From Candidatus Cloacimonadota bacterium (GTDB taxonomy: Bacteria > Cloacimonadota > Cloacimonadia > Cloacimonadales > TCS61): a stretch of 64,000 nt of DNA. Position 1 is the first letter of the stretch; the number at the start of each line of letters is the position of its first letter. Positions 12,386 through 25,651 of the stretch are shown piece by piece. The DNA lies in NCBI GenBank assembly GCA_030600585.1, contig JAUVLU010000005.1, forward strand, positions 1 through 64,000, in the 5' to 3' direction. Position numbers and translations under genes: made by a program. Below the pieces are notes generated by a model, which was not told where the DNA came from, made no database searches, and saw only the letters and a program-made list of their open reading frames with translations.

Positions 12386-13762
12386 ATGGTAAAGGTCAAA
12401 GACAGACTTCCTAATTTTAAAGAGATGAAACTGAATGCATTTACACTTATTTTCGAAAGTGATCTTGAACAAAGTTTTATTAAAGATTATTATAAAAAAT
12501 CTATCTACCAGGTTCGTGTTTCGTTCTTTCTCGCTGTTTTACTATACGGTTTCTTCGGGTTATTGGATATACATCTTGTTTCTGAAATGCGCAACTTGAT
12601 ATGGCTTATCAGGTTTTCCGTAATTGTTCCGATCGGATTACTGGTTATTGTAACTTCCTATGCAAAGGATTTTGATAAATACCGTGATATTACCATGTCA
12701 TTTACGATGATCCTGTTCGCTATCGGGATTTTACTTATGACCATTATTTCACCCAAGCCGGTAGATTTTGCCTATTATTCGATCTTGATGGTTACATTTG
12801 TTTTCGTGTACACATTCATAGGTATCCGTTTCGTTTCGGCAACTCTTACCGGAATCATTATATTTCTTTGTTATGAGATCACAGCGATAGCTATTATAGA
12901 TACACCAATGGCAATTGTGGCAAAAAACAACTTCATTTTTATAAGCACAAATGTTGTGGGAATGTTTGCAGCATACAGCATAGAATTCTATGCTCGCCGT
13001 GATTTCTTCATTAATAAAATGTTGGAAAACGATCAGTATAAAATGTCTAAACTGAACGAAGAATTAGAAGAGCAGGTCAAGGAACAAACAGCAACACTTG
13101 TAGATACCAATAAAGGGCTTATCAAAGAAATAAAATTCAGAGAAAAAGTGGAAAAAGAACTGCTTTCTACAAATGTAAAATTGAACAAACTGCTTAACGA
13201 TACTGTAACCGGACTTGTCTCTGCTATCGAATATAGAGATCCTTATACTGCCGGACACCAAAGACGGGTCACCCAACTGGCAGTAGCTATTGCCCAGAAA
13301 ATGGGACTTTCCAAAGATGAACTGGACTGCATCCGTATTGCTTCTATGATACACGATATAGGGAAAATAAATATTCCTGTAGAAATTCTTAGTAAACCGG
13401 GTAGTATTAACCAGTATGAACTTGAATTGATGCAGAATCACCCGCAAGCAGGTTATGATATTTTAAAAGAGATCGATTTCCCATGGCCTGTTGCAAAAAC
13501 TGTTCTACAGCATCATGAACGTTTAGATGGTTCCGGTTATCCAAATAAGTTAAAAGGTGATGATATTCTCCTCGAAGCAAGAGTTATCTATGTTGCGGAT
13601 GTTGTGGAAGCCATGTCTTCTCACCGACCCTACCGACCTGCTCTGGGAATCATAAAAGCATTGGAAGAATTAGAAAAGAATAAAGGAATACTCTATAATG
13701 AGAATATTGTGGATACCTGTATAAAACTATTTCGTGAAGATAAATTTGTATTTGTAAAATAG
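12386..13762 (+). CDS. Membrane-anchored HD-GYP domain phosphohydrolase
   Basis: Probable c-di-GMP phosphodiesterase or related HD-type signalling hydrolase. 458 residues: six to seven membrane segments (about 45-205), a coiled coil (about 215-265), then HD-GYP. Metal and signature residues are visible: HQRRV near the domain start, SMIHDIGK, QNHPQAGYDIL, QHHERLDGSGYP, and ARVIYVADVVEAMSSHRPYRPALG. The GYP triad is present as GSGYP. AAGGAT lies upstream of the ATG. Divergently oriented to the decarboxylase operon with a 233-bp AT-rich gap between start codons. Ligand of the membrane sensor part is unknown. Confidence 0.9.
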   Translation: MVKVKDRLPNFKEMKLNAFTLIFESDLEQSFIKDYYKKSIYQVRVSFFLAVLLYGFFGLLDIHLVSEMRNLIWLIRFSVIVPIGLLVIVTSYAKDFDKYRDITMSFTMILFAIGILLMTIISPKPVDFAYYSILMVTFVFVYTFIGIRFVSATLTGIIIFLCYEITAIAIIDTPMAIVAKNNFIFISTNVVGMFAAYSIEFYARRDFFINKMLENDQYKMSKLNEELEEQVKEQTATLVDTNKGLIKEIKFREKVEKELLSTNVKLNKLLNDTVTGLVSAIEYRDPYTAGHQRRVTQLAVAIAQKMGLSKDELDCIRIASMIHDIGKINIPVEILSKPGSINQYELELMQNHPQAGYDILKEIDFPWPVAKTVLQHHERLDGSGYPNKLKGDDILLEARVIYVADVVEAMSSHRPYRPALGIIKALEELEKNKGILYNENIVDTCIKLFREDKFVFVK

Positions 13763-13812
13763 AACAACTATCTTTTAAAGTATTCCAAAGAAAAACTTGG
13801 GAACAAAAAATC

Positions 13813-13846
13813 AAAATTGTCATCCCCGACTTGAACGGGGATCTAC
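13813..13846. repeat. GTCATCCCCGAC hairpin repeat, copy 1
   Basis: AAATTGTCATCCCCGACTTG then AACGGGGATCTAC; CCCCG pairs with CGGGG. The same 30-bp phrase with altered arms is at 25785-25816. In both places it follows a stretch containing TTGGGAACAAAAA or TTGGAAACAAGAAA and lies between converging genes. Confidence 0.6.
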
Positions 13847-13922
13847 CTTATCTGCATAATTTCAGCAACAAATTCAACTTGTTTACGAATTCTTTTTCCC
13901 GCCACGGAGTGTCGGGCTACTA

Positions 13923-14534
13923 TTATTTTGCCAGCCACTCAGCACTTATCATTGTTTTATCATTTTCTTTAACTTTACCTGTAAAAATACTTCCCTTGTT
14001 AACAATACCAACACCTTCAGGTGTTCCCGTCATAATTATATCACCGTCATTCAAGCTCATGAACGTAAGTAATTCAGATAGGATTGCCCCGGGTTTATAA
14101 ATCATTAGATCAATATTACCGGATTGAACATTTTTTCCATTGATACTCAATTCAACAGAAAAATTCCGGTTGATGTCAGCTATCTCAACAAAATTACTGA
14201 ATACGGCTGAACCATCAAACGCCTTGGCGCGTTCCCAAGGAAGCCCTTTAGATTTCAGTTTGCTTTGCAGTTCCCTTTTTGTGAGATCCAGTCCAAAACC
14301 AATAGCAGAAAATTTGCCGTCCTCATATACAAAGCATAATTCAGCTTCATAATGAATTTGTTCAATTTGAAATGAATGAAGCTCTCTTGATATTGCGGAA
14401 TTTGGTTTTAGAAAAATGACCATATTTTCAGGAATTTCGTTGTTCAATTCTTTTATGTGTTCAACATAATTCCTTCCCACACAAATTATCTTTGAGGGTG
14501 TAACTTCCCTGTTACCAACAATTATTGTATTCAC
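13923..14534 (-). CDS. Fumarylacetoacetate hydrolase family protein
   Basis: 203-residue single-domain FAH-fold enzyme; members hydrolyse or decarboxylate acylpyruvates and related 2-oxo acids with a divalent metal. Visible family marks are IICVGRNYVEHIKEL near the start, the catalytic stretch EAELCFVYEDG, GFGLDLTKRELQ, WERAKAFDGSAVFS, and the C-terminal GDIIMTGTPEGVG. All are canonical for acylpyruvase/FAHD1-type proteins. Stands alone between converging neighbours. Exact substrate cannot be read from sequence; oxaloacetate decarboxylase activity, known for some relatives, would fit the neighbourhood but is speculative. Confidence 0.88.
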   Translation of the reverse strand: MNTIIVGNREVTPSKIICVGRNYVEHIKELNNEIPENMVIFLKPNSAISRELHSFQIEQIHYEAELCFVYEDGKFSAIGFGLDLTKRELQSKLKSKGLPWERAKAFDGSAVFSNFVEIADINRNFSVELSINGKNVQSGNIDLMIYKPGAILSELLTFMSLNDGDIIMTGTPEGVGIVNKGSIFTGKVKENDKTMISAEWLAK

Positions 14535-14803
14535 ATTATTCTCCGTTAATATTAGTAATTAAAGATCTGATTTTTCTATTTTAATATAAATTTCAATTCA
14601 ATATATACTGTCAAAAGATTTTATACATTTAGTAGATAAATCTAAACTATTCAAATGCCGGCAAAATGTGCTAAAAGATAGAATTTCCCATTTTGCTTCC
14701 CTTTGTTCTTGACACTTAAGATACAGTATTGAATTTTTTTCACAGTTTGAATGAAATAAAGTAGAATAAAATATTATAGGTTCAAAAGGTAAGGTAATAT
14801 AAG

Positions 14804-17170
14804 GTGTTAAATAAAAAATCTCTAACGGAAGCAGACATTCGTACAAAATTTATTACTCCTGCTATTGAACAAGTTGGGTGGGATAAAATCACACAATTCC
14901 GTGAAGAGGTTTATTTCACAGATGGAAGAATAATTGTTCGTGGCAAATTGGTTATGCGTGGTAAACGCAAAAGAGCAGACTACATCCTTTATTATAAACC
15001 AAATATTCCAATTGCAATTATTGAAGCGAAAGACAATAATCATAATATTGGTGATGGTTTACAGCAAGCTATCGAATATGGCGAAATCCTCGATATACCC
15101 TTTATTTATTCTTCCAATGGTGATGGATTTATCGAACATGATAAAACAAAATCTGAAGGTAAAATTGAAGTTGAGCTTTCGTTAGATAATTTTCCCACTC
15201 CACAAGATTTGTGGAATCGATATAAAGAATGGAAAGGGATATCCTCAGAATTTGAGAAACCAATTCTCCAACAATATTTTTATGAAAGAGATGGTAAAGT
15301 ACCAAGATATTATCAACGAGTTGCAATAAACAGAACTGTAGAAGCGATCATAAAAGGACAAAATCGAATTCTTTTAGTTATGGCAACAGGAACGGGTAAA
15401 ACATTTACAGTGTTTCAAATAATCTGGCGATTATGGAAAGCTGGAATAAAGAAAAGAATTCTCTTTTTAGCAGATCGAAATATTCTTATAGATCAAGCAA
15501 GAACAAATGATTTTAAACCATTCGGTGATAAAATCACAAAAGTTAAACATCGGCACATTGATAAATCTTACGAAATATATCTGGCATTATATCAAGGTTT
15601 ATCCGGTAATGAGGACTGGCAAAATATTTATAAACAATTCAGTTCAGATTTTTTTGATTTAGTCATAATTGATGAATGTCATAGGGGAAGCGCAAGAGTT
15701 GATTCTGCTTGGAGAGAAATATTGAAATATTTTTCTTCTGCAACTCAAATTGGAATGACAGCAACCCCCAGAGAAACAAAAGATATTTCCAATATCGAGT
15801 ATTTTGAAGAACCAATTTACATATATTCTCTTAAGCAGGGGATAGAAGATGGTTTTCTGGCTCCATATAAAGTTATTCGGGTTGGAATTGATAGAGATTT
15901 AGAAGGTTACAGACCACCTGAAGGAAAAATTGATAAATATGGATTTGAAGTTGCAGATAGGGAATATAATATATCAGATTATGATAGGAATTTAGTAATT
16001 GATAAAAGAACAGAACTGGTAGCAAAAAGGGTTTCAGATTATTTAAAAAACAATAATAGCCGTTTTGATAAAACAATTCTTTTCTGTGTTGATATTGAAC
16101 ATGCAACTCGAATGCGACAAGCATTGATAAACGAGAATTCAGATTTAGTGAAGAAACACAATAAATATGTAATGAAAATTACTGGAGATGACCAGATTGG
16201 AAAAATGGAACTTGATAATTTCATCGATCCTGCAAGTCGTTTCCCCACTCTAGTAACAACAAGTAAATTGTTAAATACCGGTGTAGATGCTCAAACCTGC
16301 AAATTAATTGTGCTTGATACAAATATAAACAGCATGACTGAATTTAAACAAATTATCGGTCGAGGAACTAGAATTAGAGAAGATTACGATAAACTATATT
16401 TCACAATTATTGATTTCAGAAAAGCTACAAGATTGTTTGCCGATAAAGATTTTGATGGCGATCCTGTAAAAATTAAAGAAATCCCTTCCGAAGTTGATAT
16501 TCCTGTAGAAGAAGACGAAATTAAGACGGAAGACGGTGTTTTAATTGAAGATGAAGAAATTATATTTGGTGATGTATTAAAAGATCTGGATGAAGAAGGC
16601 ATAACAAAACCTCGAAAATATTATCTCGATGATGTAGATGCAAAGATAATTCTGGAAAGAGAATTATATTACGATAAAGACGGAAAATTGATCACAGAAT
16701 CTTTAGTTGATTATTCAAAGAAAAACATAAAACAAAATTATGCGTCATTAAATGATTTCCTTATTAAGTGGAAACAAGCAGAAAAGAAGGAAGCAATTAT
16801 TGATGAATTAAGAGAACAGGGATTGCATATTGATGGTCTTCAAAATGAAGTAGGAAAAGAATTCGACCCGTTTGATTTAATCTGCCATGTTGCTTTTGAT
16901 ATGAAACCATTATCACGCAGAGAAAGAGCAAATAATGTGAAGAAAAGAAATTATTTTGCTAAATATGGAGAACAAGCAAGAGCAGTTCTGAATGCTATGC
17001 TTGATAAATATGCTGACGAAGGAATTAAAAATATAGAAAATATGAAAATTCTATATGTAAATCCTTTCAATGAAATTGGGAATCCATTGGAATTAATAAA
17101 TTCCTTCGGTGGAAAAGGACAATACCTAAAAGCTGTATCTGAACTTGAAAAACAAATTTATGCAATTTAA
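14804..17170 (+). CDS. hsdR: Type I restriction enzyme, endonuclease/translocase subunit HsdR
   Basis: DNA-translocating restriction subunit. 788 residues from a GTG start with AAGG just upstream. The N-terminal nuclease domain (about residues 10-125) has a PD-(D/E)xK pattern (RADYILYYK ... IAIIEAKD). The SF2 helicase core has MATGTGKTF (about residue 193), DECHRG (about 289), GMTATPRE (about 318) and the late motif QIIGRGTRIRED. The C-terminus matches the EcoEI-type R domain (PLSRRERANNV). First gene of an hsdR-hsdM-hsdS operon with 12 and 1 nt gaps. Complete and without frameshift. Confidence 0.95.
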   Translation: MLNKKSLTEADIRTKFITPAIEQVGWDKITQFREEVYFTDGRIIVRGKLVMRGKRKRADYILYYKPNIPIAIIEAKDNNHNIGDGLQQAIEYGEILDIPFIYSSNGDGFIEHDKTKSEGKIEVELSLDNFPTPQDLWNRYKEWKGISSEFEKPILQQYFYERDGKVPRYYQRVAINRTVEAIIKGQNRILLVMATGTGKTFTVFQIIWRLWKAGIKKRILFLADRNILIDQARTNDFKPFGDKITKVKHRHIDKSYEIYLALYQGLSGNEDWQNIYKQFSSDFFDLVIIDECHRGSARVDSAWREILKYFSSATQIGMTATPRETKDISNIEYFEEPIYIYSLKQGIEDGFLAPYKVIRVGIDRDLEGYRPPEGKIDKYGFEVADREYNISDYDRNLVIDKRTELVAKRVSDYLKNNNSRFDKTILFCVDIEHATRMRQALINENSDLVKKHNKYVMKITGDDQIGKMELDNFIDPASRFPTLVTTSKLLNTGVDAQTCKLIVLDTNINSMTEFKQIIGRGTRIREDYDKLYFTIIDFRKATRLFADKDFDGDPVKIKEIPSEVDIPVEEDEIKTEDGVLIEDEEIIFGDVLKDLDEEGITKPRKYYLDDVDAKIILERELYYDKDGKLITESLVDYSKKNIKQNYASLNDFLIKWKQAEKKEAIIDELREQGLHIDGLQNEVGKEFDPFDLICHVAFDMKPLSRRERANNVKKRNYFAKYGEQARAVLNAMLDKYADEGIKNIENMKILYVNPFNEIGNPLELINSFGGKGQYLKAVSELEKQIYAI

Positions 17171-17182
17171 TTAGGAGATAGA

Positions 17183-18604
17183 ATGCCAATTTCTAATGTT
17201 GTAAAATCAATTCAAAATATAATGCGAAAAGATGACGGAGTTGATGGAGATGCTCAAAGAATTTCCCAACTTTGCTGGATGTTGTTTTTGAGAATTTACG
17301 ATACACAAGAACAAGAATGGGAACAAATCGAAGAAAACTATATAAATATTATACCAAAGAAATTTCAATGGAGAGATTGGGCAGAAGATTCCGAAGGAAT
17401 AACCGGAGATGAACTTTTAAATTTTGTTAACAATCATCTTTTCCCGGAATTCAAAAACTGGCAATTAGATGAAACTTCCGATCCTAGAAAATTCACCGTA
17501 AAAAATGTTTTTGAAGATTCTTATAATTATATGAAATCCGGAACTTTGATAAGACAGGTTATCAACAAAATTAATGAAATAGATTTTGTTAACCAAAAAG
17601 AAAGACATCTTTTTAATGATATTTATGAGAAAATTTTGAAAAACTTGCAAAGCGCAGGAAACGCTGGAGAATTTTATACTCCCCGAGCAGTTACTCAATT
17701 CATTGTAGATATGATAAATCCACAACTGGGAGAAACCATTTTAGATCCGGCTTGTGGAACAGGGGGATTTTTAGTTTGCACTCTAGAAAACCTGAAAAAG
17801 CAGCTTTCCAATATTAACGATGTAAAACAACTCCAGAAATCCATAAAAGGAATAGAAATTAAATCTCTTCCTCACATGCTTGCAGTTACCAATATGATCT
17901 TGCATGGTTTTGATGTTCCCGATATTAAACACGATAATTCACTGGCAAAAAAAGTTACTGACTACAAGGCAAAAGAAAAAGTTAATATTGTAATAACCAA
18001 TCCTCCTTTTGGCGGTACCATAAAAGACGGAATAGAAATGAATTTTCCATCTACTCTTCGAACTAAAGAAACTGCTGATCTTTTCCTTATCTTGATCATG
18101 CATATTCTTAAACCTGGCGGCAGATGTGGAATGGTTCTTCCTGACGGATTTTTGTTTGGAGAGGGCGTAAAAACCAGGATTAAGGAAAAACTGCTTTCAG
18201 AGTTTAACCTGCATACAATAGTTCGTTTGCCGAATGGTGTCTTCGCACCTTATACAGGAATAAATACGAACCTCTTATTTTTTGAAAAAGGAATTCCAAC
18301 TCAAGAAATTTGGTTCTTTGAACATCCTTTACCGGATGGTTATAAAAATTATACAAAAACTAAACCAATTAGAATCAGTGAATTTAAACTTGAAAAAGAA
18401 TGGTGGAACAATAGAAAAGAAACCGAATGTTCCTGGAAAGTAACAATTGAAGAGATAAAAGAAAAAAACTATAATTTGGATTCAAAAAATCCTTCGATAA
18501 TTAAGGAAGAAAAAGAATATAATTCCAATGAACTTATTAACAAAATTAACGAAAAACTTGTTTTCGCAAAACAGCTTTTGGAACATATAAAGAGTAATAT
18601 CTAA
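17183..18604 (+). CDS. hsdM: Type I restriction-modification system, N6-adenine methyltransferase HsdM
   Basis: 473 residues. The N-terminal helical domain (about 10-130) recognises HsdS. The methyltransferase domain contains SAM motif I DPACGTGGF (188-196) and catalytic NPPF (273-276), followed by GGRCGMVLPDGFLFG, all typical of HsdM. GGAG precedes the ATG. The hsdS start follows the stop after a single base, so the two should be co-translated. Confidence 0.96.
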   Translation: MPISNVVKSIQNIMRKDDGVDGDAQRISQLCWMLFLRIYDTQEQEWEQIEENYINIIPKKFQWRDWAEDSEGITGDELLNFVNNHLFPEFKNWQLDETSDPRKFTVKNVFEDSYNYMKSGTLIRQVINKINEIDFVNQKERHLFNDIYEKILKNLQSAGNAGEFYTPRAVTQFIVDMINPQLGETILDPACGTGGFLVCTLENLKKQLSNINDVKQLQKSIKGIEIKSLPHMLAVTNMILHGFDVPDIKHDNSLAKKVTDYKAKEKVNIVITNPPFGGTIKDGIEMNFPSTLRTKETADLFLILIMHILKPGGRCGMVLPDGFLFGEGVKTRIKEKLLSEFNLHTIVRLPNGVFAPYTGINTNLLFFEKGIPTQEIWFFEHPLPDGYKNYTKTKPIRISEFKLEKEWWNNRKETECSWKVTIEEIKEKNYNLDSKNPSIIKEEKEYNSNELINKINEKLVFAKQLLEHIKSNI

Positions 18605-18605
18605 T

Positions 18606-19937
18606 ATGAATTGGAATAGGAAAAAAATATCTTTCTTTTTAAAAGAAAGACCTGACCGTTTTAAGCCTGAAGAAGCAAATGAGATGAATCTTAAAAGATT
18701 AGAAAAAATCGATTTTAGTGGAAATATGCATATCATTGAAAACAAACCAACAAAAACTGGCATGATTCTTATTAAAAAAGGAGATTTAGTAATATCTGGA
18801 ATTAATGTTGAGAAAGGGGCAGTTGCTGTTTATACTGGTGAAGATGATTTGTTAGCAACTATTCATTATTCTTCTTATGAGTTTGATGAAAACCAAATAA
18901 ATATTGGATATTTCAAATGGTTTTTAAAAAGCAAGAATTTTCATGATGTGTTATTAACGCAAACAAAAGGTGGTATTAAAACTGAATTAAAACCGAAGAA
19001 ATTTTTGCCGTTAGAGATATTGTTACCAAGAATTGATGAACAAAAAAAAATCCTTAATAAAATCAATGATGTGATAGATGAAATAAATGATGTAATTAAC
19101 TCATTTAATAATGTTGAAGATTTTGTTAATAAACTCTGCCAATCCATCCTGCAGGAAGCTGTGAAGGGAAAACTTACTGCAGACTGGCGAAAAGAAAATC
19201 CGGATGTAGAGATTGCATCTGAACTGCTCAAACGCATAAAAACAGAAAAAGAAAAACTGATTAAAGAGAAAAAAATAAAGAAACAAAAACCACTACCACT
19301 AATAACCAAAGATGAAATCCCTTTTGAATTACCAGAAGGTTGGATTTGGTGCAGGTTGGGGGAGATTCAATCCCATCTAGAATATGGTACTTCCGTAAAA
19401 TCTGAAACTGATGGTGAGATTCCAGTTTTTTCGATGGGACATATTTTAAATGGTAAACTTGTTTATAGAAACTTTAAATATACTACTATAGCCAATAAAG
19501 ATATTCCAAGACTATACTTGTATAATAACGATATATTATTTAACAGAACAAATAGTTGGGAGCTAGTTGGCAAGTCCGCTTTATTTAATGATGAAAATAA
19601 TAAATATTCATTTGCCTCGTATTTAATAAGAATTCGTTTTTTATTTGTTTCATCAATATTTATGAATTTTGTGCTAAATTCAATTTATTTTAGAAAGTCC
19701 CAAATTGAGCCACAAATCATAAAACAATGCGGGCAGGCGAATTTTAATGGAACAAAATTAAAGAATACTTTTATTCCTTTACCTCCACTCCAAGAACAAC
19801 TACAAATCGTAGAAAAAGTAGATAAATTAATGCATCTTTGTGATGAGTTAGAAGATAATGTCAAACAAGCAAAAGAATACAGTGGGCAATTGATGGAAGC
19901 AATGTTGAGGGAGGCGTTTGATGGGGAAAAGAAATAA
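18606..19937 (+). CDS. hsdS: Type I restriction-modification system, specificity subunit HsdS
   Basis: 443 residues with two target-recognition domains (about 1-150 and 240-385) separated and followed by helical spacers. The central conserved region reads SILQEAVKGKLTADWR and continues into PELPEGWIW-like FELPEGWIWCRLGEI, the standard start of the second recognition domain. The C-terminal spacer has LPPLQEQLQIVEKVDKLM and EAMLREAFDGE. An A9 run at 19042-19050 lies in the first spacer and would be a slip site. DNA target cannot be predicted from sequence alone. Confidence 0.94.
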   Translation: MNWNRKKISFFLKERPDRFKPEEANEMNLKRLEKIDFSGNMHIIENKPTKTGMILIKKGDLVISGINVEKGAVAVYTGEDDLLATIHYSSYEFDENQINIGYFKWFLKSKNFHDVLLTQTKGGIKTELKPKKFLPLEILLPRIDEQKKILNKINDVIDEINDVINSFNNVEDFVNKLCQSILQEAVKGKLTADWRKENPDVEIASELLKRIKTEKEKLIKEKKIKKQKPLPLITKDEIPFELPEGWIWCRLGEIQSHLEYGTSVKSETDGEIPVFSMGHILNGKLVYRNFKYTTIANKDIPRLYLYNNDILFNRTNSWELVGKSALFNDENNKYSFASYLIRIRFLFVSSIFMNFVLNSIYFRKSQIEPQIIKQCGQANFNGTKLKNTFIPLPPLQEQLQIVEKVDKLMHLCDELEDNVKQAKEYSGQLMEAMLREAFDGEKK

Positions 19938-19987
19938 ATGATTGACTTATTTTTCCAAAAATAAAATATTCATTTTGGAGAAAGGAA

Positions 19988-20488
19988 ATGAATACTACAA
20001 TAATTCCAATAACTAAAGAGAATATTGAATATTTGATTAGTTGTGAAAAACAGATTGAGTCAGTAGATAGAAAAGAATTTAAAATTGAGCAATGTCATAA
20101 GAAAAATGGTTTTAAACTTTTATCTACAGACAAGAAGCATAGTTTTTCTGTTTTTATGAGAATTAATGAAGAATTTAGGGAAAATTTTAGTATAGGACTA
20201 GTGTATAAACCAGTTCTTGATAAAAGCATTATGCTTTTTCGTTGTAATGGTCCTCATAATCATAAGGAAAGACCAAATTCGGAACATCATAAATCATATC
20301 ATTATCATTATGAAGTAGAAGAAAATATTGCAAATGGACTAAATCCGATGGATCATTCTGAAATCGTAGAAGAATATGCTACATTTCGAGAAGCTTTTCA
20401 ATTTTTCATTCAACGATGCAATATTGCTAACGCTGATGATTTCTTTTCTGAATATACAGAACAAGTTTTTAATTTTATGGATGAGTAA
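19988..20488 (+). CDS. DUF6978-like protein of the R-M island
   Basis: 166 residues, soluble, no signal peptide. The middle has SFSVFMRINEEFRENFSIGLVY followed by LFRCNGPHNHK and a His-rich run EHHKSYHYHYEVEENIANG, which I recognise as the pattern of the DUF6978 family. Function is not known. It starts 50 nt after hsdS with GGAGAAAGGAA upstream of the ATG, and its stop is 2 nt before the next gene. Together the two genes look like a two-component cassette, possibly a toxin-antitoxin or defence module riding with the type I R-M genes. The family name is from memory of the motif. Confidence 0.6.
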   Translation: MNTTIIPITKENIEYLISCEKQIESVDRKEFKIEQCHKKNGFKLLSTDKKHSFSVFMRINEEFRENFSIGLVYKPVLDKSIMLFRCNGPHNHKERPNSEHHKSYHYHYEVEENIANGLNPMDHSEIVEEYATFREAFQFFIQRCNIANADDFFSEYTEQVFNFMDE

Positions 20489-20490
20489 TA

Positions 20491-21249
20491 ATGAATTATT
20501 TAGATATTGTAAGATCAGAATTCAATAATAAAGTTAGTTTTACTGAAAAAAGACCTGGTATTTTTCAGTTAAATTCACCCCTATTTCACGAAGATGGAGA
20601 TATGGTTGATATCTTCTTAACTGAAATCGAAAAAGATAAAATCAGAATTTCAGATTATGGCATGACTATTATGAGGTTGTCTTATACTTACGATTTGAAT
20701 ACTGAAAATAAAATGAAAATATTTAACCAAATAATTGGTGAAAATAAAATTCTCAATGATAATGGAAATCTGTATATTGATACAAATATTCGTGATCTTT
20801 TTTCTTCAATAATGCATTTTTCTCAAGTTGTAGCGAAAGTTAGTAATATGAGTTATTTTAAAAGAGAAATGATAAGGTCTCTTTTTTATGAAATGCTTGA
20901 TGAACATATTCATGAAAGATTTGATTCTATATATAAAGTCGAAAGAAAAATATTTCCTTTGCCAGCAAGAGATGATTTAGAAGTAGATTTTTCATTCGAT
21001 GTTGGAAAGCGTCCAATTTATCTTTTCGGTGTTAAAGATGTTACAAAGGCAAGACTTGTGACAATATCTAATTTAGAATTTTTAAGGAATGATCTCATTT
21101 TCAAAAGTTTTATAGTTTATGAAGATATTAACAATATCAATTCAAAAGATAGAAATAGACTATTAAGTGCTTCTGATAAACAATTCCCTAGTTTTGAAGA
21201 TTTCAAAGAAAATGGAGAGAACTTTTTACAAAGAGAGACAACCGGTTAA
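20491..21249 (+). CDS. DUF1828 domain-containing protein of the R-M island
   Basis: 252 residues, soluble. The first 100 residues have the DUF1828 pattern (HEDGDMVDIFLTEIEKDKIRISDYGMTIMRLS), a family found in prophages and mobile islands. The remainder has VAKVSNMSYFKREMIRSLFYEML, then ARDDLEVDFSFDVGKRPIYLFGVKD and a C-terminal DKQFPSFEDFKENG. The second half is rich in beta-strand pattern with conserved D and K residues (EVDFSF ... YLFGVKD) reminiscent of a nuclease-like fold, but this is only an impression. Starts 2 nt after the previous stop, so co-translation is likely. Confidence 0.65.
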   Translation: MNYLDIVRSEFNNKVSFTEKRPGIFQLNSPLFHEDGDMVDIFLTEIEKDKIRISDYGMTIMRLSYTYDLNTENKMKIFNQIIGENKILNDNGNLYIDTNIRDLFSSIMHFSQVVAKVSNMSYFKREMIRSLFYEMLDEHIHERFDSIYKVERKIFPLPARDDLEVDFSFDVGKRPIYLFGVKDVTKARLVTISNLEFLRNDLIFKSFIVYEDINNINSKDRNRLLSASDKQFPSFEDFKENGENFLQRETTG

Positions 21250-21416
21250 TTACAATATTTTTCAATTTCTTAACACCATCCTTTCTCCTACAACTTTTAC
21301 CGGCAGGGTCAACGAAAATTTTGGTAAGTTTTTAATAATAAATTTGAAATGTTGTTATTCCGTAGGGAACAAAATCCGAAAACAATAATCAGTTTAAAAT
21401 ATAATATGAGAATTAA

Positions 21417-21935
21417 ATGAATCGCAAAGCAAATAGATACAAAGATTATAATTATTCATCGTCAGGATATTATTTCGTTACGATTTGCACAAAAGATCGG
21501 TTATCGTTTTTTGGTAAAATAGAAAACGGTAAAATGATTTTGAATGAATGTGGTGAGATAGCAGAAAAATGTTGGTTAGAAATCCCCAAACATTTCCCAA
21601 ATGTAAAAACAGATGAATTTGTGATTATGCCCAATCATTTTCACGGCATAATTATTATTGATGGTTTTGTAGGGAACAGGCATGCCTGTTCCCTACAAAA
21701 TGGTAACGTAAACCGACAACATCAGAAATTACCTGTTATCATCGGTTCGTTCAAATCTGCCGTAACCAAATTAATACATCGAAAATGTGATAATAGTTTT
21801 CAATGGCAAAAATCCTATTATGATCACATAATTCGTGATGAATCGTCGTTGGATAATATTCGACAATATATCAGACAAAATCCCATAAATTGGGATACAG
21901 ATAAGAATAATTTGTTGTTTTGCAGCTACCGCTGA
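21417..21935 (+). CDS. REP-associated tyrosine transposase (RAYT, Y1/IS200-like)
   Basis: 172 residues of the Y1_Tnp HUH family, which nick and rejoin DNA at palindromic REP-type sequences. Visible are the N-terminal YNYSSSGYYFVTICTKDR, the HUH motif in IMPNHFHGIII, and the catalytic Tyr region WQKSYYDHIIRDE followed by IRQYIRQNPINWDTD. No clear ribosome site. The coding sequence contains a perfect 36-bp palindrome (21665-21700) translated as part of a loop just after the HUH motif, without breaking the frame. A 32-bp stretch of its 5' end recurs at 23112-23143. Confidence 0.92.
   Translation: MNRKANRYKDYNYSSSGYYFVTICTKDRLSFFGKIENGKMILNECGEIAEKCWLEIPKHFPNVKTDEFVIMPNHFHGIIIIDGFVGNRHACSLQNGNVNRQHQKLPVIIGSFKSAVTKLIHRKCDNSFQWQKSYYDHIIRDESSLDNIRQYIRQNPINWDTDKNNLLFCSYR
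21665..21700. repeat. Perfect 36-bp palindrome inside the RAYT gene
   Basis: TTTTGTAGGGAACAGGCA is followed directly by its exact reverse complement, with no spacer. It encodes about residues 83-95 (FVGNRHACSLQNG) in frame. It has the size and form of the REP/BIME-like palindromes that such transposases act on. The phrase GTAGGGAACA also occurs 5' of the gene at about 21361-21370. Confidence 0.85.
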
Positions 21936-22011
21936 GTTAAAAACGACGCAGTCGGATTTGACTTAAGAATTGCGGATTTTAGCGATTACTTTTTCATTCT
22001 TAACTCAATTC

Positions 22012-22050
22012 CTCAGCAAGCTGAGTTATTAAGTCAAGTCCAGACAAGAT
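22012..22050 (+). repeat. CTCAGC hairpin plus 22-bp direct repeat, copy 1
   Basis: CTCAGCAAGCTGAG forms a small hairpin at 22012-22025. It is followed by TTAAGTCAAGTCCAGACAAGAT (22029-22050), which recurs exactly at 23393-23414. Both copies are preceded by TTCTTAACTCAA, so the repeated block is about 60-70 bp with a variable centre. The two copies bracket the decayed AbiE locus. Confidence 0.65.
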
Positions 22051-22076
22051 ATTATTTCGCAGAAACCTAAATTATT

Positions 22077-22181
22077 CCTGATCTTTTAGTTTGGCAAGAT
22101 GGAAGATATAGTAACGATTATTTAAAAAGCTTTACAATAAAACCATTAAAACAATATTTGGATCGTTTTCAAGGCAAATAA
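22077..22181 (+). pseudogene. C-terminal scrap of an unidentified gene
   Basis: A frame open only after a stop at 22068 reads PDLLVWQDGRYSNDYLKSF and ends FQGK at a TAA. It has ordinary protein composition, no start codon and no ribosome site, and lies between the RAYT 3' repeat and abiEi. It is probably what remains of a gene removed by mobile-element activity. Family not recognised. Confidence 0.35.
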
Positions 22182-22217
22182 AATGTATCTGCCTTGAATA
22201 AAGACCAAGGAGTTCTA

Positions 22218-22814
22218 ATGGAAAAGCTAATTAAATTCTTTAAAGCACATCGAGGTTATTCAAGAATGAAGGATATGCGTAATTCAGGTATTCATCCTAG
22301 AGATATTACTAGAGCTATGAACATGAATGTAATCGAGAAAATTAATCCTGGTCTTTATAAGCTGACAGATCATTCTTGGGATGAACATCTTGGTTTTATT
22401 GATGTAGCTAATGCTAAAAACAATGCTGTTGTCTGTCTTATTTCCGCACTAGATTATCATGAACTGTCTACGATCAATCCTTCTGTAATTTCTATTGCTG
22501 TTCCTCACAACACAGATAAATTCAGTATGAAATATCCTCCGGTTAAAGTTTATTATTTTCAAAATACATTTTATGATCTTGGAATTGAAGAGATAAAAAC
22601 AAAGACAGGTATATTCAAAATTTATAATGCAGAAAAAACAATATGCGATATGTTTCGCTATCGTAATAAACTGGGGGAAGATCTCGCTCTGGAAGGACTG
22701 AGGAATTATCTTAAGCGTAAAGATGCAAATATTGCCAAACTTAGAGAGTATGCAATTAAATGTCAGGTAAAGATAGTTCTGCTTCCATATCTGAAAGCGA
22801 TGGTAGTAAAGTGA
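22218..22814 (+). CDS. abiEi: AbiEi-family antitoxin/transcriptional regulator
   Basis: Antitoxin of the type IV AbiE system, which represses its own promoter and counteracts the AbiEii nucleotidyltransferase. About 198 residues. The start is the ATG at 22218, which has AGGAG five nt upstream; the frame extends upstream but without a better site. The N-terminal winged-helix (YSRMKDMRNSGIHPRDITRAMN ... VIEKINPGLYKL) is followed by the C-terminal antitoxin domain (CLISALDYHELST, YNAEKTICDMFRYRNKLGEDLALEGL), both typical. It is intact while its toxin partner is truncated. Confidence 0.9.
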   Translation: MEKLIKFFKAHRGYSRMKDMRNSGIHPRDITRAMNMNVIEKINPGLYKLTDHSWDEHLGFIDVANAKNNAVVCLISALDYHELSTINPSVISIAVPHNTDKFSMKYPPVKVYYFQNTFYDLGIEEIKTKTGIFKIYNAEKTICDMFRYRNKLGEDLALEGLRNYLKRKDANIAKLREYAIKCQVKIVLLPYLKAMVVK

Positions 22815-23041
22815 AAAAGCAAATAAAGAATGTTGAAGCATCCGTGAGAGCAAGACTACTGAAGATAGCCAAAGATTCTAATCGTGATTTCAATGCAATT
22901 TTGCTTCAATACTTTCAGGAGAGGTTGCTCTACCGTCTTTCAATTTCTGTATATAAATATAATTTTATATTAAAAGGTGCTCTTCTTTATCTTGTCTTTG
23001 ATTTATCACGTATCAGACCCAATGAAGAGCATTTTTGTTAA
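22811..23041 (+). pseudogene. AbiEii toxin, N-terminal fragment (truncated nucleotidyltransferase)
   Basis: A GTG overlapping the abiEi stop (GTGA) opens a 76-residue frame reading KKQIKNVEASVRARLLKIA, then LLQYFQERLLYRLSIS and FILKGALLYLVFD. This is the N-terminus of AbiEii-type toxins, which are normally about 250-300 residues. The frame ends at 23041, just before the DxD part of the nucleotidyltransferase motif that normally follows the GALL strand, so the catalytic site is absent. Downstream DNA is scrap that includes a piece of RAYT sequence. The toxin must be inactive. Confidence 0.82.
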
Positions 23042-23111
23042 GAATGGAATTAGACACAAACACAACATTTGCAACTTGCATAATAATTATCAGAGATTTT
23101 ATCGAAGCTGT

Positions 23112-23143
23112 ATTATAATTATTCATCGTCAGGTTATTATTTC
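23112..23143 (+). mobile_element. RAYT gene fragment
   Basis: ATTATAATTATTCATCGTCAGG followed by TTATTATTTC matches the 5' coding part of the nearby RAYT gene (YNYSSSGYYF) at 31 of 32 positions. It lies 70 bp after the point where the AbiEii toxin frame ends. Confidence 0.65.
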
Positions 23144-23392
23144 TTTTATTCATGTTTATCAGTGTTATCAGTGGTTAATTTTTTGCGTTCTTAGCGGTGA
23201 AAAGTTCGTAAAGGTTTCTAAGTTATTAAGTTAAGTATAGCAGAAAAGATTTACTATTTCATTTTTCTTTTGTTAGTTTTTGTTAGTTTTTGTTCGTTGT
23301 TAATTTTTTCTGCCTGCCGTGGCGAAGTCTTTACGAAGACAGGTTCTTAACTCAAGTTTTCAGTTAGGTAAAGATGAGAGATTTCTGCATTC

Positions 23393-23414
23393 TTAAGTCA
23401 AGTCCAGACAAGAT
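23393..23414 (+). repeat. 22-bp direct repeat, copy 2
   Basis: TTAAGTCAAGTCCAGACAAGAT, identical to 22029-22050, 1364 bp apart. See copy 1. Confidence 0.7.
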
Positions 23415-23474
23415 TTGATTTGCAGCGAACGAAGTGAGTGTGAATCGAGAATTGTGAATCTTCAATTTTCTACC

Positions 23475-23531
23475 AACCATTGCGAAGGTTAATTTGAGAG
23501 AATTCCTAAAGAAGAAACCATTCGCAAGGTT
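23475..23531. repeat. AACCATTGCG palindromic repeat, copy 2
   Basis: Arms AACCATTGCGAAGGTT (23475-23490) and AACCATTCGCAAGGTT (23516-23531) pair with two symmetric single-base bulges. In the copy at 5606-5659 the central pairs are TTGCGGA/TCCGCAA; here they are TTGCGAA/TTCGCAA. This is a compensatory change that preserves the stem. Confidence 0.65.
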
Positions 23532-23827
23532 TTATCAACTGAAAATGAATTGACTCTATAACCTCCAGATTTTTTAAGACATATATGAAAATAATGAGTT
23601 CTGCATAATAGATTGTTTTTGTCATCCTGATCCCGAAAGCTTTCGGGATTGTTCTCTGGAAGGATTTTCACTTATAAGGAGACTTGTCCGCTGTGGTGGA
23701 TTCTTCGTCGAATGCCTATGTGAGTTTTTATCAGCCTTAGGCTGACAAGCCTCAGACTGTGTCCGGCTTTTGACGGAAAGACAACTATTTTGCAGAACCC
23801 TTTAAGAAAATATGAGGTAGAGGAATA

Positions 23828-25651
23828 ATGAGAAAAATTAAAAACATTGCCATTATCGCTCATGTTGATCATGGCAAGACCACTCTGGTAGATGGAGCTT
23901 TAAAGCATTCCGGGATATTCAGAGAAAATCAGAACGTTGCCGATCGCATAATGGACAGCAATGATCTTGAAAGAGAACGGGGAATCACCATATTTTCCAA
24001 AAATGCATCTCTTACTTATAAAGATTATAAAATAAATATAGTCGATACACCAGGTCATGCCGATTTTGGCGGTGAAGTTCAACGAATTATGAAAATGGTG
24101 GATTCTGTTTTGTTATTGGTCGATGCTTTTGAAGGTCCGATGCCGCAAACAAAATATGTGCTGAAAAAATCTTTGGAATTAGGATTAAATCCGATTGTTG
24201 TCATCAATAAAATAGATAGACCGAACGCACGACCCTCCGATGTACTCGATATGGTGTTCGACCTTTTCTGCGATCTCAATGCAAACGATGCTCAATTAGA
24301 TTTTCCTGTTCTGTATGCATCGGGAAAAGATAGTATTGCAAGATATGAACTGGAAGACAAAAATAATGACCTGATCCCTTTATTTGAAACGATCATCCAC
24401 AAAGTGAAAGATTCGGAAGGTGATGAATCCAAGCCTTTCCAAATGCTGATTTCTGCCATTGAATACGATAATTATCTGGGGAAAATTGGAACGGGAAAAA
24501 TTACGAATGGGCAAGTAAGTCAAGGTGAAGAAGTCGTATTATTAAAACGCGATGGAGAAAGATTACTCTATAGAATTTCCAAAATTTTCCAATATGACGG
24601 ATTAAAAAAGAAAGAGATAAAAACAGCGTATGCCGGAGATATTGTCTCTCTTGCCGGAATGGAACGAGTTGATGTAGGTGAGACTGCAGCCTGCAAAGAT
24701 AATCCAAAACCGCTTCCAATTATCGAGATCGATGCTCCAACTTTATCGATGACATTCAGGGTTAATGATTCTCCTTTTGCCGGAAAGGAAGGGAAATGTG
24801 TAACTTCCAGAAATATCTGGGAGAGACTGCAAAAAGAGCTTCAAACCAATGTGAGTATCGTGGTTGAGCCTACCGAAAACGCAGATGAATTTATTGTAAA
24901 AGGACGCGGCGAACTTCAGCTTGCTATCCTCATAGAAAATATGCGGCGTGAAGGTTTTGAATTCCAGGTTTCCACACCTAAAGTTATTTATCGTCAGCTT
25001 GATGGAAAACGTACGGAACCTATCGAACTTGCTGTTATCGATGTGGCTGATGAATTTGTGGGAACGGTTATCGAAATGCTTGGCATACGAAAAGGTGAAA
25101 TGTTGAATATGGTACAGGGTAACGACGGCTACACTCGTTTGGAATATAAAGTTCCAGCTCGCGGTTTGATCGGGTTCGGAAACGAATTTCTTACCACCAC
25201 TCGTGGAACGGGCATTATCAATCACAGTTTTTATGAATATGAATTTTACAAAGGTGATTTAGATAAGAAAAAACGCGGTGCCCTCATCGCTATGGAAAAT
25301 GGAACTTCTACCGGCTATTCGCTGTTCAATTTTCAGGCTCGTGGAATTCTGTTCATTGGTCCGGTTGTGGAAGTTTATGCCGGAATGATTGTTGGAGAGC
25401 ATTCACGTGAAAATGATCTGGTGTTAAATGTTGTGAGAGGTAAGAAACTCACAAATGTTCGGGCATCAGGTTCTGACGATGCGATCAAACTTGCGCCGCC
25501 AAGACAATTCAGTTTGGAACAAGCTCTTGAATATATTAATGATGATGAATTGTTGGAGGTAACTCCTAAAAATATTAGAATGCGGAAAAAAATTCTCGGC
25601 GAAGTTGATAGAAAAAGAGAGATGAATAGATTGAGTAAATTGAGACAATAA
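23828..25651 (+). CDS. typA: Translational GTPase TypA/BipA
   Basis: Ribosome-associated GTPase of the EF-G superfamily involved in 50S assembly and stress growth. 607 residues, normal length. G motifs are visible: AHVDHGKTTLVD (P-loop, residues 10-21), ERGITIFSK, DTPGHADFGGEVQR and NKIDRPNARP. The TypA-specific C-terminal domain shows PARGLIGFGNEFLTTTRGTGIINH and KLTNVRASGSDDAIKLAPPR. GAGG precedes the ATG. Single-gene unit between repeat-rich spacers. Confidence 0.97.
   Translation: MRKIKNIAIIAHVDHGKTTLVDGALKHSGIFRENQNVADRIMDSNDLERERGITIFSKNASLTYKDYKINIVDTPGHADFGGEVQRIMKMVDSVLLLVDAFEGPMPQTKYVLKKSLELGLNPIVVINKIDRPNARPSDVLDMVFDLFCDLNANDAQLDFPVLYASGKDSIARYELEDKNNDLIPLFETIIHKVKDSEGDESKPFQMLISAIEYDNYLGKIGTGKITNGQVSQGEEVVLLKRDGERLLYRISKIFQYDGLKKKEIKTAYAGDIVSLAGMERVDVGETAACKDNPKPLPIIEIDAPTLSMTFRVNDSPFAGKEGKCVTSRNIWERLQKELQTNVSIVVEPTENADEFIVKGRGELQLAILIENMRREGFEFQVSTPKVIYRQLDGKRTEPIELAVIDVADEFVGTVIEMLGIRKGEMLNMVQGNDGYTRLEYKVPARGLIGFGNEFLTTTRGTGIINHSFYEYEFYKGDLDKKKRGALIAMENGTSTGYSLFNFQARGILFIGPVVEVYAGMIVGEHSRENDLVLNVVRGKKLTNVRASGSDDAIKLAPPRQFSLEQALEYINDDELLEVTPKNIRMRKKILGEVDRKREMNRLSKLRQ

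Follow-up and report, generated by a model that had tools for sequence, protein, structure and literature searches.

Two small genes that directly follow a type I restriction-modification (R-M) operon in a 64,000-nucleotide stretch of a Candidatus Cloacimonadota genome (hereafter the window) recur in other genomes as a pair, read in the same direction and almost constantly adjacent; their spread, as computed here, is patchy, restriction genes are enriched around them, and temperate phages carry them between repressor and integrase. We propose, with a probability of roughly 0.4, that these genes, here called A and B, form a mobile two-gene anti-phage module of the kind catalogued as PDC-M24, which would be organized like a toxin–antitoxin system, with A as the effector and B as its keeper or sensor.

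Results

Gene A (positions 19,988 to 20,488, forward strand) is an ORF of 166 amino acids and gene B (20,491 to 21,249, forward strand) an ORF of 252 amino acids, both with an ATG start. The original prediction had placed them 2 nt apart and 50 nt behind hsdS, in the same direction, and our ORF calls agree. The operon ahead of them is complete, as had been claimed, with all three genes on the forward strand and matching their families: hsdR (14,804 to 17,170; PADLOC REase_I at 1174 bits, Pfam EcoEI_R_C), hsdM (17,183 to 18,604; PADLOC MTase_I, Pfam N6_Mtase), and hsdS (18,606 to 19,937, its stop; Pfam Methylase_S, PADLOC Specificity_I). The gap between hsdS and A contained no terminator-like site on the forward strand, the scan doing no better than on shuffled sequence, and one promoter common to the hsd genes and A–B could not be demonstrated because promoter and terminator matches equaled those in shuffles.

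The pair lies in a hotspot of variable content (12,386 to 23,828) between an HD-domain gene and bipA. In one genome (G097, locus L141) these two flanking genes are ∼0.9 kb apart with a single gene in between, and in another (G098, locus L140) the gap holds ∼9 kb of other genes, one of them PDC-S01-like; because the two genomes differ in content there, we regard the insertion spot of the window island as variable. Directly 3' of B is an IS200-like/REP-associated tyrosine transposase gene (21,417 to 21,935, forward strand; over the Pfam cut-off and below that of NCBIfam). It is followed at 22,218 to 23,041 (forward strand) by an AbiGI-like gene (PDB 6y8q/9hlo, E 1.2e-13) and a truncated AbiGII-like gene, a combination that is intact in the sibling genome G099 (L145:484-1928; AbiGII E 2e-35). 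This remnant is probably the nearby broken toxin–antitoxin locus of the original prediction; such a locus does exist and is AbiG-like, but it is a unit separate from A–B.

To follow the pair across genomes, GTDB species genomes were scanned with five B proteins, which yielded 136 relatives, and the best 80 by full-length B match were used. At 78 of these best 80 loci an A homologue or remnant preceded B; searched with the A profile, the region upstream of B held a full gene at 61, pieces at nine, a partial gene at five, a contig edge at three, and nothing at two. Where A was full length in one frame (61 of the best 80), the A–B gap ranged from −20 to +50 nt in 60 of 61 cases, and a 4-nt overlap was the commonest arrangement (16 of 61). 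One locus tallied as having a full A (L029) carries an in-frame stop by another search. With A as the bait, 396 Acidobacteriota genomes gave eight A genes in seven genomes, every one adjoining B, and B itself was found in 16 genomes. Among 124 Cloacimonadota genomes DUF1828, the family of B, was present in 13 and DUF6978, the family of A, in 10, all 10 of which also had DUF1828; A and B were adjacent in nine, and in the tenth (G104) they were split over two contigs. The three B-only genomes comprise one whose A was missed by Pfam (G036), one with a 30-residue remnant (G028), and one in which none was found (G010). In an older branch of DUF1828-DUF1829 proteins A preceded B in 18 of 19 loci; nine of those loci had seeded the profile, so the independent count is 9 of 10. 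The fixed pairing claimed from the window alone therefore extends well beyond this genome, while presence remains patchy (13/124 and 16/396 genomes). The closest relative we found, L118, is from the same phylum, with A 68% and B 76% identical to the window proteins.

Other genes were occasionally seen next to B. Two loci without A (L031, upstream of 10001, and L042, upstream of 7564) have a DUF2283 gene, over its cut-off, directly before B, and a further locus (L045) has one 3' of B. A DUF4258 gene that we had read by eye before DUF2283 in L031 and L042 was not confirmed on checking; DUF2283 was. In L151 a different partner gene, a 201-residue frame that we take to resemble SocA/DUF4065, is upstream of B, and in L154 the corresponding frame has 174 residues and an RYHEHI motif and may be a remote A.

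A matches DUF6978 (PF22398) over its full length at 28.4 bits (E 2.3e-6), narrowly short of the curated cut-off of 29.6 bits, and 46 of 63 A relatives match the family at E ≤ 0.1. It also covers nearly the whole PDC-M24A profile of the PADLOC library (E 1.9e-5), matches phrog_27326 (E 1.5e-15), and matches the classical DUF6978-type A genes profile to profile (probability 96.4, E 1.2e-9). On these profile matches A is a diverged DUF6978 protein, in line with its earlier description as DUF6978-like. Its histidine-rich motif, N87...H90...H101...H105-x-H107 (20,246 to 20,308, forward strand), proved real and conserved: among 63 homologues N87, H105, H107, and G70 are each kept in 63, H90 in 62, and H101 in 59. 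The conserved N/H residues are a candidate active or metal site. The HxH, together with an upstream R-x-[ND]..H, is kept in most A genes of the older DUF1828-DUF1829 branch when that alignment is read by eye.

The AlphaFold model of A is beta-rich and confident (pLDDT 89, pTM 0.86). Compared with PDB structures it gave a best Z of 6.0 and Foldseek values all at E ≥ 0.26, with no clear match to a solved fold, and searches of A's sequence against solved structures returned zero matches. A viral model library returned one uncharacterised phage protein (E 1.2e-3), all others being at E ≥ 0.18. Neither the PDB nor the viral library provided a match to a known toxin, and the fold comparison provided none to a housekeeping family.

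B was recognized as DUF1828-like from the outset, and it matches PF08861 at 61.7 bits (cut-off 22) over residues 30 to 117; 81 of 81 B homologues in our alignment A3 match DUF1828 at E ≤ 0.1. Further matches are to PDC-M24B (E 1.7e-14), where residues 12 to 148 cover the N-terminal half of the profile, and to phrog_5059 (E 1.5e-22). A direct HMM match to DUF1829 (PF08862) is absent from window B and from the families listed for the 81 homologues of A3. B does align nearly full length with DUF1828-DUF1829 proteins in a profile-profile comparison (probability 98.6, E 1.3e-15), and the DUF1829 HMM matches 18 of the 18 proteins used there. We therefore describe B as DUF1828 followed by a divergent DUF1829-type domain.

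The AlphaFold model of B has a pLDDT of 90 and a pTM of 0.58, so that each of its two domains is well predicted on its own but their relative placement is not. Residues 1 to 128 (20,491 to 20,874, forward strand) have a predicted fold like that of type III secretion chaperones, and residues 129 to 252 (20,875 to 21,246, forward strand) one like that of PD-(D/E)XK proteins. Among the best 50 PDB matches for B, ∼20 are type III secretion chaperones (Z 7.5–9.0) with two relatives, 21 are PD-(D/E)XK proteins, and the remaining seven are receiver- or flavodoxin-like chains, the classification being our own. The chaperone-type matches include SigE, SycE, and CesT, along with DR_1245 (Z 7.5–9). B differs from these chaperones in having its own conserved set, D35-G36-D37 and D55, and in that no secretion genes were seen around the pair. 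The C-terminal domain contains, by the order of elements in the predicted model, the alpha-beta-beta-beta-alpha-beta core of the PD-(D/E)XK superfamily, and its top matches are Bax1 (Z 10.2), PspGI (10.1), and Can2 (10.0); Can1, EndoMS/NucS, and BstEII align too. Foldseek repeated some of these nucleases, with E-values of only 0.007 to 0.1 and with receiver-like folds scoring similarly, and the sequence of B gave only chance matches to solved structures (6fx6, E 0.53; in a profile search 2ejc, E 0.11). The comparison with nucleases that had been suggested thus ended in a predicted nuclease-like half of B joined to a chaperone-like half.

Conserved Asp and Lys residues had also been claimed for this half of B, and the columns of the 81 homologues bear this out in part. 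D166 is D in 79 and K230 is K in 81, and position 134 (E134) is E or D in 81, but K182 is K in only 55, with N in 13 and R in 11. Position 180, where by the spacing in NucS the third-strand acid would be expected, is G in 71, A in nine, and P in one. The conserved D...(D/E)xK set of the superfamily is thus absent from B, as judged from columns and not from superposition on a solved site. We infer that the catalytic set is degenerate and that the C-terminal domain would act mainly in nucleic-acid binding or sensing.

Because E134 and D166 are strongly kept, B may yet be a catalyst, and the main rival to our reading, which we consider possible although rather unlikely, reverses the roles. B would then be the effector, cutting like a restriction nuclease through an unusual PD-(D/E)XK site made of E134, D166, and K182 or K230, and A would load or license it as an adaptor or sensor. 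The nuclease alignments, the invariant acidic position 134, the near-invariant D166, the invariant K230, and the frequent R-M neighbors described below all fit this arrangement. Arguing against it are the G, A, or P at position 180 and the N or R that replaces K182 in 24 of 81 homologues; the equivalent strand of the DUF1829 group, read by eye in alignment A8, shows K, N, R, or Q.

The state of the A genes also bears on this choice. Among the best 80 of the 136 relatives, A is in pieces or partial at 14 loci and absent from two, and B persists at all of these, which speaks against B as an effector that needs A. B matches in 49 genomes included none with an internal stop. Broken A genes, interrupted at scattered positions beside an open B, suggest that keeping A, unlike B, has a cost, although this asymmetry is biased since ranking by full-length B match hides broken B genes. 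In Acidobacteriota the asymmetry is weak: A is broken or not found and B intact in L149, L150, L159, and L160, and L153 is the reverse case, with A intact and B split over two frames. At one locus (L044:4577-6751) A is shortened, and a 472-aa ORF, probably an insertion, lies between its remnant and B.

The pair is also carried by phages. A viral scan with alignment A3 (81 B homologues) found nine loci; viral scans with a single A or with alignment A4 found no relatives, and a plasmid search with window B found none. Window-type B is present in three Pseudomonas phages, and in the one opened the pair comes after cI. Eight further phage or phage-like records (L107–L113, L117) were opened, seven of which have a regulator gene on the upstream side of the pair and a gene for an integrase or recombinase on the other; L112, an archaeal virus, has neither. 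The pair sits between repressor and integrase in seven of the nine phage-type records opened, a region where prophages keep genes that are expressed during lysogeny. L113 is a plasmid record that carries phage genes, and L114–L116 are plasmid records without the repressor–integrase setting.

The pair thus resembles toxin–antitoxin systems in being a compact operon of two coupled genes carried on mobile DNA, and it might be a plain addiction module that stabilizes islands and prophages and has no direct anti-phage action. That the pair occurs in phages, in a satellite phage, and in plasmid records is consistent with such a role, as is the frequency with which A is broken. We nevertheless judge it unlikely, because the enrichment of R-M genes around the pair and its embedding inside type III operons exceed what addiction requires.

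That enrichment was measured on 872 neighboring ORFs from 79 loci (L033, nearly identical to L032, was left out), taking as a proxy for methyltransferases any ORF of ≥250 aa with an [NDS]PP[YFW] motif; the ORF caller was simple, and genes of one locus are not independent. Such ORFs numbered 14/139, 6/102, 2/87, 0/87, and 0/33 in successive 2-kb bins from the pair, or 20/241 within 4 kb versus 2/207 beyond (odds ratio 9.3, Fisher p 2.5e-4). PADLOC family matches were also more numerous for the nearest genes (140 and 94, sets A5 and A6) than for distant genes (52, set A7); we relied on the motif gradient since these tallies are not convertible to gene counts. The pair is therefore enriched next to restriction genes, and the defence-gene setting first noticed in the window is found in other genomes too. 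An R-M-like gene lies within 2 kb of the pair at 17 of the 79 loci. In L040 and L052 the pair is embedded between type III mod and res (mod-A-B-res), and according to PADLOC a type III methyltransferase is encoded upstream in L040 and type III restriction enzymes (E ∼1e-20) are encoded downstream at both loci; L037 has the order res-mod-A-B. L034, from a Bryobacteraceae genome, repeats the hsdR-hsdM-hsdS-A-B order of the window, with HsdR 44% and HsdM 43% identical and HsdS weakly similar. In L128, from the window's phylum, AbiLi-like and Lmu-like genes adjoin the pair.

The association with a type I R-M operon seen in the window did not hold as a rule. Around L118, the closest relative found, a search of 20 kb turned up nothing that matches the hsd genes of the window, which led us to reject strict R-M coupling. 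Other copies of the pair adjoin methyltransferase genes, of type III or another kind, or are carried by phages. The pair might nonetheless be an accessory or guard of restriction systems, of the PrrC-like kind, and the type I order in the window and L034 and the type III orders in L040, L052, and L037 are what one would expect if it acted only with a neighboring R-M system or when a phage inhibits one. We think this improbable given that by the same criteria 62 of the 79 loci lack an R-M-like gene within 2 kb, that the nine phage-type copies opened have no annotated R-M gene beside the pair, and that L118 is without hsd. We attach similarly little weight to a general restriction-linked guard, in which B, with its chaperone-like domain and dead nuclease fold, would clamp a toxic, His-dependent A of new fold and release it when a phage attacks or inhibits neighboring restriction, B being an exchangeable keeper (in L031 and L042 DUF2283 replaces A). 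That the pair has a housekeeping or metabolic role unconcerned with phages, in favor of which one could cite that A, having no fold match, might have any chemistry, is very improbable in view of the patchy presence, phage carriage, defence neighbors, and variable insertion site.

Discussion

The window pair has the same two-gene make-up as the PADLOC candidate PDC-M24, its adjacent A and B matching the PDC-M24A and PDC-M24B models as judged by E-value and coverage rather than by PADLOC's own score and coverage thresholds. It is a divergent branch of that candidate: A falls below the DUF6978 cut-off, and the second domain of B is not reached by the DUF1829 model nor fully by the M24B model. Papers using the PADLOC library state that its PDC entries were nominated through guilt-by-embedding and that most lack validation, and PDC-M24 is not named in the main texts of the open literature we searched. 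Since both A and B match its models, the pair counts as catalogued yet unvalidated. PDC-M24, a candidate without an assigned function, had been missed by the original prediction; the structural and contextual evidence and the divergent branch are new. The nearest classical counterparts are DUF1828-DUF1829 proteins of the Lactobacillus prophage Lj965 and Staphylococcus phage 37, which have an upstream DUF6978-type gene and a near full-length profile match to B; they are about 15–17% identical to window B, and DUF1829 is recognisable in them and not in window B.

The possibility of an antiphage or addiction function, raised from the window alone, has become our leading idea, and we consider it probable that the pair serves defence or superinfection exclusion as such. 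The division of labor between A as effector and B as keeper or sensor is more tentative, falling somewhat short of even odds. It is the best supported assignment because broken A genes occur beside open B genes, A keeps its His set, the catalytic set of B is weak, and HipAD (DS-6) offers a precedent: there a DUF1829 protein, DS-6B, and a HipA-like kinase make up a two-gene system with validated defence activity, which its authors read as toxin–antitoxin (PMC13092281). HipAD differs in that its partner is a kinase and not DUF6978, and its second protein is DUF3037-DUF1829 and not DUF1828; A matches DUF6978 and M24A and no kinase family. The nuclease-like half of B recalls the defence and repair PD-(D/E)XK nucleases Can1/Can2, Bax1, PspGI, and EndoMS/NucS (Z about 8–10), from which it differs in its missing third-strand acid and variable lysine.

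Under the module we favor, A would be a harmful effector whose near-invariant N/H residues form an active or metal site, and B would keep A inactive: the chaperone-like N-terminal domain would bind A, and the PD-(D/E)XK-like C-terminal domain would serve mainly to bind nucleic acid or to sense. Infection by a phage would disturb B, freeing A to halt growth or phage replication; if A is released in this way upon infection, a prophage with the pair would be expected to exclude rival phages.

The fold of B, the His set of A, the position in the lysogeny locus, and the type III embedding together turn a catalogue entry into a concrete question, namely which partner harms the cell and whether B senses phage. 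If B is indeed a keeper of the chaperone type whose nuclease fold is dead, it would join in defence two protein classes that, to our knowledge, have not been joined there before.
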